Shown here piece by piece: positions 1 through 11,749 of a DNA stretch of 16,245 nt. The position numbers were made by a program, and so were the translations under genes. Where the stretch lies: positions 1-16,245 of the forward strand of contig JAEORY010000033.1 in the NCBI GenBank assembly GCA_016840645.1. Direction: 5' to 3'. Below the pieces are notes generated by a model that saw only the letters and a list, made by a program, of their open reading frames with translations, searched no databases and was not told the DNA's origin. Origin of the DNA: Candidatus Borrarchaeota archaeon (lineage in GTDB: Archaea; Asgardarchaeota; Sifarchaeia; Borrarchaeales; Borrarchaeaceae). The first letter of the stretch is position 1; every line of letters begins with the position of its first letter.

Positions 1-21
1 CCTCACGCTAAAGCAGTGAGG
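1..21. repeat. IS end hairpin (right end of first tnpB element)
   Basis: A perfect six-base-pair stem CCTCAC/GTGAGG has inner GC/GC pairs, a TAAA loop and one bulged A. It overlaps the tnpB stop codon, the expected place for the right-end hairpin that also closes the omega-RNA scaffold. The sequence that would act as guide lies to the left, outside the window. Confidence 0.7.
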
Positions 22-1235
22 CTTCCTGTTTCTGCGACCATACTTGCCTCAACGTAGGCTATCTGATTCAGATACTCCAACGTTAAGGTAGAGGTATTAG
101 TCTCCGCAGGCGTGACTTCGGTAGGTCCCCTACCTAGGATTCTAAGACCTTCGTGTTCTAGCACACAACTGCTGTTAACATCACGGTCTATCACCAAACC
201 GCAATGATAACACTCATAGGTACGTTCGGCTAAACTCATAGCGCGCTGATGACCGCAACGCGAACAGGTCTTGGTGGAGGGGAAGAAACGGTCAATTTCC
301 ACCGGTGTATGCACCTTTATTTCAAGCATGCGAATTATTCCACCGAGGCTAGTTGACAGCATTCTGCTACCCCACAAGCGTTGCCAGGCGCCTAAATTCT
401 CATTTTGATAACATACCATTTGAAAATTGGTGGCGAGGAAATGAACCAGTTTATTGCGGATATCTCGTTTAATATTGGTGGTTTTAGCGTAGGCTTTGAG
501 CAACTTATAGAGCGTTTTCCACCAATTCTTACTGCGATACTGTTTACAACTTAATTTTTTACACAACTGCTTTATACGGCGCGTAATTGGCACCTTGTAT
601 CGTATACGTATCCCGTTCGAAAGCGATGGTGGCGCTATCATCGCCGTCGTGTGGTCTCGCGGGGTATAGGTAGTTATTGCCACGTAATACTCGCCATGCT
701 GGTGAAGGAGTGTAGCATTGGCACATTCACAATTAGATGGCAGTTGTTCCAAGCCGTTGACCCGCAATTTTTGTGGTATCCTTTGAAGCTGCACGTATTT
801 GCTGTTGATGATCCTGTAGGTATTACCGTATTGCTTGAGCGGGATGGATTTCACATACGACTTGAACTTCAACCGTCCAATCTTGTGACCCTTGGCTTTC
901 ACACGCGATAAGCCACGGATATTCTGCTGGGTGCGTGTTATGATGCTCTGACGCATGTGTGACGATAACTGCCTTAATTGGCGAAGCTCAAACCGGTCTT
1001 TAACCTTTACTGACACGGCTGTTATGGTATCATCGATGGCAAACACGTTAGGATGCCCAACACAATGATTGTACAGCCATTTAGCTTCCAAAAATAAGAG
1101 CCTTAAGCGAGTTAACGAGTCGTGGTTTACATGCGAGCGGTCTAGCTTCACCGTATACACCCGGCACAGCATGTGTTTACGACGCTCCTTAGTGTCCTTC
1201 AAAGTAGCTTTGATCCGTTCGTTCTTTGTTAACAT
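3..1235 (-). CDS. tnpB: TnpB family protein, RuvC-I motif apparently deleted
   Basis: This is an OrfB_IS605/TnpB-type RNA-guided endonuclease homologue of about 410 residues. The upstream in-frame ATG at 1265 would add ten hydrophobic residues; ATG at 1235 gives the usual MLTKNERIKATLKDTKERRKH-like start and is preferred. Visible parts are the N-terminal helical recognition region, a C-terminal four-cysteine zinc ribbon (CSRCG then CYHCG), a probable RuvC-II glutamate in the run CYQNENLGAW, and RuvC-III in IDRDVNSS. The strand that should carry RuvC-I (a G-I-D-x-G type motif just before LSNGIRI) is missing: the protein runs from TTAMIAPP directly into SLSNGIRI, as if six to nine codons were lost in frame. 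Cleavage activity is therefore unlikely. The stop codon lies inside the end hairpin, as is normal for these elements. It is either a decaying copy or a nuclease-dead derivative. Confidence 0.85.
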   Translation of the reverse strand: MLTKNERIKATLKDTKERRKHMLCRVYTVKLDRSHVNHDSLTRLRLLFLEAKWLYNHCVGHPNVFAIDDTITAVSVKVKDRFELRQLRQLSSHMRQSIITRTQQNIRGLSRVKAKGHKIGRLKFKSYVKSIPLKQYGNTYRIINSKYVQLQRIPQKLRVNGLEQLPSNCECANATLLHQHGEYYVAITTYTPRDHTTAMIAPPSLSNGIRIRYKVPITRRIKQLCKKLSCKQYRSKNWWKTLYKLLKAYAKTTNIKRDIRNKLVHFLATNFQMVCYQNENLGAWQRLWGSRMLSTSLGGIIRMLEIKVHTPVEIDRFFPSTKTCSRCGHQRAMSLAERTYECYHCGLVIDRDVNSSCVLEHEGLRILGRGPTEVTPAETNTSTLTLEYLNQIAYVEASMVAETGSLTALA

Positions 1236-1376
1236 GGTACAAGTTCTCCACACAAATAAAAACAACTAGTTAATAATTTACAACCTAATTGCTCACTCTT
1301 TGTACTCCATCCTTGTTTATATACTCAGCAAAAAGTAGCATCAAGTTAAAAAATGTAATACATTAACACCATTCAT

Positions 1377-1397
1377 CCCCAAGCTCAAGCAATGGGG
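1377..1397. repeat. IS end hairpin (left end of first tnpB element, or solo end)
   Basis: CCCCA/TGGGG stem with an inner GC/GC pair and TCAA loop, followed by GCTTTCTTGTTTC. It has the same architecture, orientation and flanking motif as the hairpin at 1-21. It most simply marks the other end of the tnpB element; it could instead be the leftover right end of an older copy, since no tnpB remnant is visible to its right. The rest of 1266-1583 contains no gene I can support. Confidence 0.6.
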
Positions 1398-1540
1398 CTT
1401 TCTTGTTTCGTCTTATTTAAAAGACTGAGTTAATCCCAAATTGGAACTATCCTATAAGATACCAATTTAAGGGAATTAATCTGTATACTGCGGCATACTT
1501 ATGGATACAACATTGAAAAGCATTAAAAGCATCAACCATA

Positions 1541-7008: not shown

Positions 7009-7143
7009 AATAGACTGATAATTTTCTTGGAAAAATGACTATATCAAACTGATTGATATAGAATCAAAGTTGCCAAATTCTAAATAACAAGAAAGGCTAT
7101 ATTCTATCTTATTTTAATATATTTTAGAATTTTCGTACCGAGG

Positions 7144-8349
7144 TTATGCAATTTGAACCATATGGTTCAAATGACTTCGTGCGATCTCATCATCATCAGT
7201 TAGATTCCATCGCACTGGGTGTAACCCAATGACACCCCCTCCTACCCCGTCAGCCCTCACTTGCATAAAGGCGTTCGGTTCGCTTTTTCTTACGATATTA
7301 CCTGCTCCATTGACATCGGCATTGATGAGAACCCCCTGAGCACTTCTGAATAAGCCTCTTCTTATTCTCTTTCCTAGATACTGTTCGTGATGTTCTATAG
7401 CTTCGTTATCCAGAAAACTACACTTGCTGGTATGATTTTCTTCTACCAACTCTACCGCTATCCCCTGCTCTTCCGCTTTATACGTTAGCAGGGAGCTGAT
7501 TTTCTGGTAGGGGATCAACACAAAGGTTTGATTGTTTCGCGTACCTAAGTTCACCTGTTGTTTCCATTCGGGATTATAGCCGATCACCAGTTTGCCAATG
7601 CCATGCTGCACACACCAATCTACGACAACCCTGCTGAGTTTGTGGAGGTAATCCTTCGACTTTCTTTCGTACTTGATTCGCAGTTGCTTCATTTTACTAC
7701 CATCTTGTATCCCTCTGCCATCATCCTTAACAACAATCGGTTTTTTGCCGATGTTATTCACCAGAGTAATGATGTTCGAGACCCCAAAATCGATGCCTGC
7801 TATCCGCCTTTTGTCAGGTGCCTTCGGTGTAATTACTTTCTGGTAGACGATTTCACAGACATACCCTACTCCTTTGGGAAGTACTCTCACTTCTCTCAGC
7901 TCGGTAGTATCCGCCAGTCGTGTAGTAATGTCATAATCAAAGGTGAGTTTCTTTGGAAATAGGAGCACGTTGTTTTTGATGCGACACTGTTGGTTTGTAA
8001 ACACTAACAGATGCTCACCATTCTTCTTTTTATATTTGGGTGGTCGTGGTTTCTTCTTGAATTTCTCAGGATGGCGTTTCCACTCTTTAATAGCCCGAAA
8101 AAAGGATTTCCATGCTTTGTCAAGTAATCGAAGGATTTGTTGTGCCGTCTGTGCTGGTAATTTTCGGTAATTGGTACTGAGTTTTAACCGATGGTAGAGT
8201 TGGTTATACCGTATCCACTGGTTGTGGTGCTTCAATGACTGCTTAATAGCGTAGTTAGCTTCATTATACAAGTTTTTTGAGAGATGACATAAGTGACTAA
8301 GGGTCGTATTTGGTTTCAACCAGATGAGCTCAGTTCTTTTAACTCTCAC
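7144..8349 (-). CDS. tnpB: TnpB (IS1341-type RNA-guided nuclease), apparently intact
   Basis: A 401-residue OrfB/TnpB protein of a different subgroup from the copy at the left edge. It has a basic N-terminal recognition half (about 1-175), RuvC-I Asp187 in AGIDFGVSN, the run IGYNPEWKQQVNLGTRNNQTF, Glu303-Glu304 in LVEENHTSKCSFLDNE and RuvC-III Asp345 in INADVNGAGNI. The classic CxxC...CxxC zinc ribbon is absent, as usual for the SFLD subgroup. The RuvC-II glutamate seems not to be in the standard ExL context and may be supplied by E303/E304, like the rearranged active sites known in some TnpBs. The GTG start at 8349 is immediately followed by RVKRTELIW. The stop lies just beyond a perfect palindrome that overlaps the last codons. 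Confidence 0.9.
   Translation of the reverse strand: MRVKRTELIWLKPNTTLSHLCHLSKNLYNEANYAIKQSLKHHNQWIRYNQLYHRLKLSTNYRKLPAQTAQQILRLLDKAWKSFFRAIKEWKRHPEKFKKKPRPPKYKKKNGEHLLVFTNQQCRIKNNVLLFPKKLTFDYDITTRLADTTELREVRVLPKGVGYVCEIVYQKVITPKAPDKRRIAGIDFGVSNIITLVNNIGKKPIVVKDDGRGIQDGSKMKQLRIKYERKSKDYLHKLSRVVVDWCVQHGIGKLVIGYNPEWKQQVNLGTRNNQTFVLIPYQKISSLLTYKAEEQGIAVELVEENHTSKCSFLDNEAIEHHEQYLGKRIRRGLFRSAQGVLINADVNGAGNIVRKSEPNAFMQVRADGVGGGVIGLHPVRWNLTDDDEIARSHLNHMVQIA
7151..7172. repeat. Perfect palindrome at the right end of the second tnpB element
   Basis: ATTTGAACCAT followed by its exact reverse complement. It can fold into a nine-base-pair hairpin with an ATAT loop and overlaps tnpB codons for SHLNHMVQI. 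This is the expected position of the right-end hairpin and omega-RNA 3' stem. Confidence 0.7.
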
Positions 8350-8430
8350 TTAAGCCACTCTCTACTTTGTGCATTCTCTTTTGGGATACCGTTTCATTGA
8401 ATAGCAGGCGTTTTCAGTATTTAATAATAC

Positions 8431-8487
8431 CATTTGAGTATAAAAACCCCTTTAGTCTAACTCTATAACAACCGATATACTCAAATG
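8431..8487. repeat. 12-bp perfect inverted repeat (IS left end or operator)
   Basis: CATTTGAGTATA at 8431-8442 and its exact reverse complement at 8476-8487, 33 bases apart. It may be the left-end structure of the tnpB element. Alternatively it may be an operator for the small genes to the right, because a TATAAAAA box lies on its left arm. Confidence 0.55.
8439..8446 (+). promoter_or_regulatory. TATA box for the two small genes
   Basis: TATAAAAA predicts a transcript start near 8470. It overlaps the left arm of the 12-base-pair inverted repeat, so the downstream genes may be read from a promoter located at the insertion end. Confidence 0.45.
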
Positions 8488-10502: not shown

Positions 10503-10516
10503 GTATATATATATAC
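10503..10516 (+). promoter_or_regulatory. TATA-like box ahead of the structured element
   Basis: GTATATATATATAC, self-complementary, predicts a transcript start near 10540, about 25 bases before the first hairpin of the structured element. Because it is a palindrome it could work in either direction; no gene lies close on the left for the minus strand. Confidence 0.45.
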
Positions 10517-10564
10517 CAAAAGAGCATATCGTCATTTACACTTAACGATTTCAAAGGTCAATCA

Positions 10565-10584
10565 CCCCCTACCAAGTTAGGGGG
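10565..10584. repeat. Opening end hairpin of the structured element
   Basis: Perfect seven-base-pair stem CCCCCTA/TAGGGGG with six-base loop, followed by GCTTGTTCCGTGA. It has the same strand orientation and downstream motif type as the hairpins at 1-21 and 1377-1397. Confidence 0.6.
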
Positions 10585-10920
10585 CTTGTTCCGTGAGGAG
10601 CGAGAGTAATTGGTTGATTAGCCTAAGAGAGGTCGTGGTGAAACACACATGACGGTATCTACGTTATCAGCAGAGTTAAAGAACACACCACGGGATGCTT
10701 CTCTAGTCCCGTGCTCTGTAAATGGTGGTTTAAACAGAGAGGAAACTCTCAGTGATCATCGTATAGTACTGACTGATAACCTTGGCGAAGAGAACCTACT
10801 CCCTTGGTGTTGGGAGCGACGGGACTTGAGAGTACCCGTCATTAAAACACCACCCGAGGTTGGGTACACCAACCCCTGTCCTTGCAGAAAGGGTTGTGTG
10901 AGCAACGCTCGCCCTCAATT

Positions 10921-10943
10921 CCTCACCCCAACACGTTGAGGGG
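10921..10943. repeat. Closing end hairpin of the structured element
   Basis: It can pair as CCTCA/TGAGG or as CCCC/GGGG, and is followed by TCTTCTTGCGGTGA. It is a direct, same-orientation relative of the opening hairpin. The CCTCAC start also resembles the hairpin at 1-21. Confidence 0.5.
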
Positions 10944-11005
10944 TCTTCTTGCGGTGAAATGATAAAATCTTGCCTTTAATTGAGTTATAGTATTTAGTGA
11001 GATAC

Positions 11006-11749
11006 ATGTCATCTTCAAAGGATATTCTAAATGATGTTCTAACAGATTTAGGACCATTAGGCTCTTTCGGTGTGATGTTTTTAGCATCAAATGGTGAGAT
11101 ACTTCATGGATCCTTTACCAATGAAGAACATGAAAGTCTCGCTGTTGATATAGTAAAGAGAAGTTTTTCCAACATGGATGTCTCTGACTTTATTCAAAGA
11201 GGGCTATCTGATCTTAACTCTCAACTTTATGTCTTCAAGCTAGCTGAAGATATTGTAGTGAGCTTGATAACAAATGAATCTATTGGAACTGTCTTAGTTA
11301 ATCTAAATGCAATCGTTAAGAAGTATCATAAACAACTTGAGGACGCATTTCCAAATTCTAAGACACCTAGAAAAGATTCTGATCGACCAATTGATTTTAC
11401 TGTATATGAAATACAAGATGAAGTTTTATGCAAAACAGTGAAGAGAATTTTTGAAAGGATTAAACACCTAGGAATAATTGAGATTCTATTTTTTGAAGGA
11501 GATAAATTTGTCTTTGGAAACTTTGCTGACGTTGATAAAGAATACGAAAAACTGGCAATAGACCTTGTGCAGCAACACGTCTCTAGTTTCAATGTTTCTG
11601 ATTTCATTAGAAAGACTTTAGAGAGTGATATAAAATTGTATGTGTGTAAACTTTCTGACACACTTACAACTGCGTTTCTAGCTAAGAATCCGCTTGGTCA
11701 AATTCTGTTGCGGTTAAAAGAAATAATCGAAGAACTAAGCCATAATTAA
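11006..11749 (+). CDS. Tandem roadblock/longin-like two-unit protein
   Basis: A 247-residue soluble protein made of two related units of about 90 residues (numbered from ATG at 11006: about 15-105 and 155-243), joined by a charged linker (NSKTPRKDSDRP). The units align: LASNGEILHGSF with FEGDKFVFGNF; NMDVSDFIQRGL with SFNVSDFIRKTL; LYVFKLAEDIVVSLITNESIGTVLVNL with LYVCKLSDTLTTAFLAKNPLGQILLRL. The pattern (strand pair, helix, strand pair ending in a glycine-containing turn, long C-terminal helix) resembles the roadblock/LC7 and longin-like folds that act as scaffolds or regulators of small Ras-like GTPases, notably expanded in Asgard archaea. This is fold-level inference. An in-frame GTG at 10997 would add three residues. 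It converges with the proteasome gene. Confidence 0.7.
   Translation: MSSSKDILNDVLTDLGPLGSFGVMFLASNGEILHGSFTNEEHESLAVDIVKRSFSNMDVSDFIQRGLSDLNSQLYVFKLAEDIVVSLITNESIGTVLVNLNAIVKKYHKQLEDAFPNSKTPRKDSDRPIDFTVYEIQDEVLCKTVKRIFERIKHLGIIEILFFEGDKFVFGNFADVDKEYEKLAIDLVQQHVSSFNVSDFIRKTLESDIKLYVCKLSDTLTTAFLAKNPLGQILLRLKEIIEELSHN

Follow-up and report, generated by a model that had tools for sequence, protein, structure and literature searches.

A probable non-autonomous ISC element of an Asgard archaeon, consisting essentially of one IscB-type omegaRNA

Layout of the locus

The window, the whole 16,245-nt stretch analysed here, comes from a Candidatus Borrarchaeota archaeon (assembly GCA_016840645.1, contig JAEORY010000033.1). 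It contains a short element without a recognisable protein gene, flanked by a TATA-like box on its left and by the gene at 10997–11749 on its right. The features of this region are listed below.

10504–10515, plus strand: TATA-like run upstream of the element, in the leader of the host gene (sequence; aligned with TATAAATA in L001 and L002); putative promoter of the RNA
10541–10556, plus strand: predicted guide, about 16 nt of the left flank, directly 5′ of HEARO model position 1
10557–10961, plus strand: the complete solo element of 405 bp (L001 and L002 have the empty site; ten full-length copies with differing flanks)
10557–10799, plus strand: HEARO (IscB omegaRNA) scaffold (RF02033, full model; pair counts)
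10565–10584, plus strand: left end hairpin, within the first domain of the scaffold (sequence; HEARO match)
10699–10704, plus strand: pseudoknot 5′ side, UUCUCU (complement at 10789–10794; both sides exchanged together in other scaffold classes)
10789–10794, plus strand: pseudoknot 3′ side, AGAGAA (complementary to 10699–10704)
10799–10816, plus strand: hairpin in the position of terminal hairpin 1 of the omegaRNA (fold, pair counts, comparison with PMC9640706)
10818–10840, plus strand: hairpin at the place of terminal hairpin 2, containing TTGAGAGTACCC (fold, pair counts, alignment with iscB-bearing copies)
10843–10915, plus strand: segment of the 3′ module, 73 bases, missing from iscB-bearing elements and unlike iscB (alignments, tail model)
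10926–10943, plus strand: right end hairpin (sequence; copy alignment; common to the iscB-bearing L012, L032 and L074)
10962–10965, plus strand: target-adjacent motif ATAA in host DNA, of the ATRA family
10997–11749, plus strand: host gene, with the element in its upstream region

The host gene encodes a protein of 250 residues, which by eye resembles two similar halves and has no Pfam or NCBIfam match. A genome scan returned homologues at just two loci, in B. weybense (L001, 91% identity) and B. yapensis (L002, 83% identity). Judged by its sequence, the window's host is close to Candidatus Borrarchaeum, which is assigned to the class Sifarchaeia in PMC9723677.

A tnpB gene at 7144–8349 on the minus strand (identified as TnpB by an NCBIfam match of 156.3 bits, cut-off 100) lies in a separate insertion, 7142–8470, which is missing from both relatives at that site. 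A second, weaker tnpB relative, below the NCBIfam cut-off, occupies 3–1265 on the minus strand. As the alignments to the two relatives start only at 1415 and 1419, window positions 1–1414 are probably also an insertion. The initial annotation had drawn attention to a guide-bearing solo scaffold beside two tnpB genes; the scaffold is indeed a solo, but the nearby tnpB genes are not part of the element.

Boundaries and coding content of the element

Both relatives have an empty site, which reads TTTCAAAG-ATGAAATCTTGCC, and the two sites define an insertion of 405 bp at 10557–10961. In the window, TTTCAAAG is followed by the 405 bp and then by ATAAAATCTTGCC; the 40 bases 3′ of the element align ungapped with the two relatives, with 34/40 and 35/40 identities. 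These empty sites show that no target base was duplicated or lost, and they move the right end to 10961 from about 10943, where it had originally been placed. Because both relatives lack the element at this site, the window copy is young. With subterminal hairpins, insertion next to a short motif and no target duplication, the element has the properties of a non-autonomous IS200/IS605-type element. An autonomous ISC element would have iscB directly behind the scaffold; here, 10557–10961 contains no open reading frame (ORF) with a family match.

A frame of 96 codons was rejected as a gene. It has no match in Pfam or NCBIfam, its collinear frame is interrupted by stops in five of the ten full-length copies, and substitutions at the three codon positions number 106/59/87, which does not favour third positions. 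The original judgement that the region holds no convincing protein is thereby upheld.

A complete IscB-type scaffold

An Rfam scan of the whole window returned a single match over its curated score, HEARO (RF02033), on the plus strand at 10557–10799 (128.6 bits, cut-off 83, model positions 1–211 of 211). Model position 1 coincides with the exact left end of the element, and the flanks beyond it differ among copies. Sixty-five of the 67 consensus pairs fall on window bases, and 63 of these 65 are canonical. RNA 10557–10840 has a folding energy of −104.3 kcal/mol, compared with −82.3 ± 4.9 kcal/mol for shuffled sequences (z = −4.5; 0/200 shuffles as good). The dense folding noted in the initial annotation is real, and the stems that it named were recovered: the two end hairpins, the GNRA-type hairpin GAGAG-GAAA-CUCUC (10737–10750, within the HEARO match) and the nine-pair hairpin with a single bulge, which corresponds to 10818–10840. 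HEARO is now recognised as the omegaRNA of IscB: according to PMC9755519, the 5′ untranslated regions in this nuclease group match RF02033 in 65% of cases, and the region encodes the single guide RNA needed for cutting.

A pseudoknot and two terminal hairpins are described for the IscB omegaRNA in PMC9640706. In the window, the hairpin loop UUCUCU pairs with AGAGAA, a stretch 3′ of the nexus stem, as in HEARO RNAs. Among 66 scaffolds examined, the window included, 56 have a complement of at least four bases at the expected places. In nine of the other ten, among them all seven scaffolds of the 252-nt class, the script did not locate a loop; the tenth has a loop that is unmatched. The letters vary by class while complementarity is kept (UUCUCU/AGAGAA, UCCACU/AGUGGA, UCCCU/AGGGA, UACCCU/AGGGUA).

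Covariation, which had been put forward as a check on the RNA, was evaluated on 33 of 35 homologous scaffolds of the window's class, omitting two that are clipped by contig ends. Across 80 pairs, taken from a structure partly derived from the window itself and hence favouring it, 96.6% of cells are paired, compared with 31–45% when the partners are slid by 1–3 columns. Twelve of the 80 pairs are changed on both sides, a number reached by 1/500 shuffles; the number of further pair types is not above that of shuffles (356/500 as high). Pairing is weaker in the first hairpin (81% of cells) and in terminal hairpin 1 (86%).

Solo and iscB-bearing copies in related genomes

HEARO matches occur in five Sifarchaeia genomes (36 in G001, the genome of L001; 9 in G002, 12 in G003, 36 in G004 and 10 in G005), and we examined 66 of these 103 (36/36, 9/9, 8/12, 13/36 and none, respectively). 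In G001, iscB lies behind 17 of the 36 RNAs, once as a 31-residue remnant, and 19 are without it. Of the nine in G002, five have iscB (two broken), three are solo and one is a fragment. The examined matches divide into two with and six without iscB in G003, and into eight with iscB, three without and two reaching a contig end in G004. The iscB family PF14239 has 16 matches in G001 and six in G002, where a single broken gene accounts for two of them. One iscB product matches the NCBIfam model guided_IscB (NF040563) at 365.7 bits against a cut-off of 175, as well as solved IscB structures. Across the Asgard phylum, with up to nine candidates scored per genome, HEARO was found in at least 14 of 227 genomes and above the cut-off in at least 11.

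Ten copies align with the window along the whole element, nine in G001 and one in G004, all with differing flanks; three of the ten have internal deletions. The solo form shares its scaffold and right end with the iscB-bearing L012, L032 and L074, and in a tree of scaffolds the window and all ten same-class solo copies fall into one clade with these three (support 0.82; many inner branches are weakly supported). The solo copies, at differing sites, carry a common tail that is missing from the iscB-bearing copies; the solo form itself was thus copied. Since near relatives carry many solo copies beside enzyme-bearing ones, the window element probably borrows its IscB from another locus. Judged by eye, the intact Y1 transposases encoded in G001 and G002 have a tnpB-like frame next to them, and the ends of their elements look unlike those of the solo form.

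Three further observations concern individual copies. One solo is orthologous in two species (L080, G003:C286:7608, and L069, G004:C136:32402); the two differ at 0/16 guide positions, 4/64 positions of the further flank and 41/372 of the element, which thus changes faster than its flank. At L060 (G001:C4:705319–705994), a solo scaffold has an iscB-bearing element as a close neighbour with the same orientation, and it seems that one of the two was inserted immediately behind the other. In the interval from HEARO to iscB in the iscB-bearing L003, L005, L006 and others, inspection by eye places GGAGG within the arm of a hairpin and the TTG start within the following hairpin's loop, an arrangement which suggests that the folded omegaRNA could hold back translation of iscB.

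The 3′ module

Downstream of the scaffold, the solo element carries a 3′ module in place of iscB. Within hairpin 10818–10840, TTGAGAGTACCC corresponds to the start of IscB (LRVP) in enzyme-bearing copies, and the stem of this hairpin shows paired changes. We considered whether the solo-specific segment that follows could be leftover iscB coding sequence and rejected this: aligned with what follows the scaffold in each of eight iscB-bearing elements, it scores no better than chance, 13/300 shuffles being as high even for the best alignment (whole-ORF scores were obtained without a shuffle control).

A covariance model of the tail, R1, contains 29 pairs, of which five are changed on both sides; its covariation term is small (−0.31). 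With up to 150 candidates scored per genome, R1 has at least 41 matches in G001–G004, and none among the candidates scored in G005. Thirty matches in G001–G004 reach at least 64 bits; 28 of them adjoin a listed HEARO match and two lie in elements clipped by a contig end. The remaining 11 comprise ten that adjoin HEARO and one that begins at a contig end. Nine other HEARO-bearing genomes of the phylum gave one weak match, of 32 bits, beside HEARO.

A near-identical 3′ module thus occurs in place of iscB on scaffolds of three classes, of 243, 216 and 252 nt. L007 (243-nt class) and L019 (216-nt class) share 58% of their scaffold and 95% of their tail, and L007 and L059 (252-nt class) share 52.5% and 87.5%, respectively; the other four of the five solos of the 252-nt class in G001 have a different or diverged tail. 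Tails this similar on such dissimilar scaffolds indicate that the tail, or the scaffold before it, was exchanged between lineages. One may speculate that the module is a functional RNA domain which enables the omegaRNA to act in trans, perhaps through a role in the stability or processing of transcripts without an attached iscB message, and that recombination, by joining it to scaffolds from three IscB lineages, gave Sifarchaeia genome-wide trans-acting guide RNAs that parasitise resident IscBs. We regard this as a tentative and rather doubtful extension of the data.

Guide, target motif and host leader

The guide of IscB lies 5′ of the scaffold, and the bases 3′ of the element are the target-adjacent motif. 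For this reason, the predicted guide of the window element consists of the bases before 10557, and not of those after 10943, where the initial annotation had sought it. Compared with the empty sites of L001 and L002, 10 of the 16 guide bases match, nine of them contiguous at the junction. With only 10/16 matching, these sites do not show targeting. Mismatches in the 14 motif-proximal positions are reported to abolish cutting (PMC9640706), so the expected target would be the empty allele of the same species rather than that of the relatives. In the five relatives' genomes, sites resembling the window guide with up to three mismatches are hardly commoner than a reversed-pattern control (335 vs 297).

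Among 28 short elements, ATRA follows the right-end TTG at 10 nt in 20 and at 10 or 11 nt in 26, while two have no such motif; four further solo copies, whose right end was missed by the script, are outside this count. A search confined to RTRA, and therefore no test of the motif, located one in 15 of 25 iscB-bearing elements. HEARO was, in its first description, reportedly found inserted before ATGA or GTGA, which fits the motif here.

The TATA-like run at 10504–10515 aligns with TATAAATA in the element-free relatives and hence belongs to the older leader of the downstream gene. The element is thus preceded by a promoter-like sequence, as originally proposed, but does not carry it. Given the position of the insertion, a transcript from this box would begin with about 16–22 nt of sequence ahead of the scaffold, which is the length expected of a guide. 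A scan for bacterial-type promoters, which does not cover archaeal ones, found none, and terminator-like sites were predicted on the minus strand only.

A co-oriented ORF of at least 100 codons starts within 150 nt downstream in 16 of 26 solos, six of them exactly at the motif (ATGA), and a divergent ORF lies upstream in three of the 26. These 26 are the window and 25 of 31 copies, five without a located right end and one with a short flank being omitted. In a rougher count, in which no motif was located for 10 of 25 elements and a few flanks may begin inside a broken iscB, iscB-bearing elements show 13/25 co-oriented downstream and 1/25 divergent upstream ORFs. An orientation bias peculiar to solos is therefore unsupported. 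Because iscB-bearing elements show it too, the bias can be explained by the choice of target together with selection against insertion into genes.

Origin and possible mode of action

Taken together, these results lead us to interpret 10557–10961 as a non-autonomous ISC (IS200/IS605-like) element made up essentially of a single IscB omegaRNA, without an iscB gene, a reading to which we assign a probability of roughly 0.85. This retains the core of the initial annotation, namely a non-autonomous IS200/IS605 derivative with a solo omegaRNA-like scaffold that would need its nuclease in trans. As part of the same explanation, the ancestor would be an iscB-bearing element of the same sub-lineage, in which the 3′ module replaced iscB before the solo form multiplied.

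Such an element could act as follows. It was inserted, presumably by a transposase acting in trans, between the TATA-like box and the host coding region, directly before ATAA. The transcript from the TATA-like promoter would comprise some 16–22 nt of flank as guide, followed by the scaffold; the omegaRNA would fold and be loaded in trans by an IscB encoded elsewhere in the genome. The loaded IscB may then cut the element-free site, whether left by excision, with ATAA directly next to the flank, or present as a sister allele without the element, and repair after the cut would restore the element and so retain it. Cut-and-restore of this kind is described for TnpB in PMC11870625. The solo element would then parasitise resident IscBs, with the omegaRNA multiplying as a separate mobile unit that guards its site.

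Other readings of the locus fit less well. The element could be a dead relic, left when internal deletion destroyed an iscB element, and would then neither yield a functional RNA nor move by itself; it encodes no protein, and some solo copies do have internal deletions in the tail. However, nearly all consensus pairs that fall on window bases are canonical (63/65), the pseudoknot is intact, and solos at different sites share a tail that iscB-bearing copies lack, which argues that they spread as solos. Decay is therefore unlikely, though it is the most serious competitor. The initial annotation had suggested a TnpB-type omegaRNA (reRNA), with its guide after 10943 and used by a neighbouring TnpB, in line with the two tnpB genes in the window and with hairpin ends as in IS200/IS605. 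A TnpB omegaRNA would have its scaffold behind or overlapping the 3′ end of tnpB and its guide 3′ of the scaffold. Here, the scaffold matches HEARO, the element contains no tnpB, its 3′ side opens with a short motif common to the copies instead of a free guide right after the hairpin, and in relatives it is iscB, not tnpB, that follows the same scaffold. We give this identification hardly any credence.

A domesticated regulator, in which the solo RNA in a host leader guides IscB for gene control or acts as a leader structure, would account for the co-oriented ORFs behind solos (16/26, six at the motif, against 3/26 divergent upstream) and for the unchanged guide of the orthologous solo in G003 and G004. 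Yet the orientation bias is shared by iscB-bearing elements, in the orthologous pair the flank is better preserved than the element, guide-like sites hardly exceed their control, and the window copy is young, being absent from both relatives. Regulation by a domesticated RNA thus appears improbable, and less plausible than decay. The non-autonomous ISC element remains our preferred reading.

Cas9 is thought to descend from IscB. A key transition on such a path is the separation of the two, in which guide RNAs once encoded together with their nuclease gene come to be encoded away from it. The genomes examined here show this separation in multi-copy form in Asgard archaea, with guide RNAs copied separately beside full elements that have matching scaffolds. 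The coexistence of multi-copy solos and matching full elements makes both use in trans and the role of the 3′ module directly testable.

Comparison with known systems

The window RNA agrees with HEARO, the IscB omegaRNA, in matching the whole RF02033 model above its cut-off and in its pseudoknot, two terminal hairpins and RTRA-like 3′ motif; it differs in having the 3′ module in place of iscB. With the iscB-bearing ISC elements L012, L032 and L074 it shares scaffold, right end and type of motif, whereas those have iscB between scaffold and right end. The omegaRNA of TnpB (reRNA) in IS605/IS607 is likewise the RNA guide of a transposon nuclease, with a different scaffold, guide side and partner. 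MITE-like or palindrome-associated (PATE) derivatives of IS200/IS605 are short, have no protein gene, carry subterminal hairpins and insert without target duplication. All of this holds for the window element, which in contrast contains a complete guide RNA and not the ends alone.

In titles and abstract openings among the papers listed on IscB with Asgard archaea, and in passages of PMC12558985, nothing refers to these elements, and the main text of the Borrarchaeum paper (PMC9723677) has no word starting with ‘transpos’. Titles and abstract openings on stand-alone or non-autonomous IscB elements mention no shared 3′ module; as they come mostly from outside subscription journals, this is weak evidence of novelty.

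Stand-alone omegaRNAs are a close parallel, sharing with the window element an omegaRNA without an adjacent nuclease gene. Their ability to function with IscB is mentioned in PMC9581776, which cites an earlier report, presumably Altae-Tran et al. 2021. The elements described here differ in forming a multi-copy mobile family, in occurring in an Asgard archaeon and in having a 3′ module common to three scaffold classes. Stand-alone omegaRNAs as such are therefore already known; what is less expected is a near-identical 3′ module on three different scaffolds in place of iscB.
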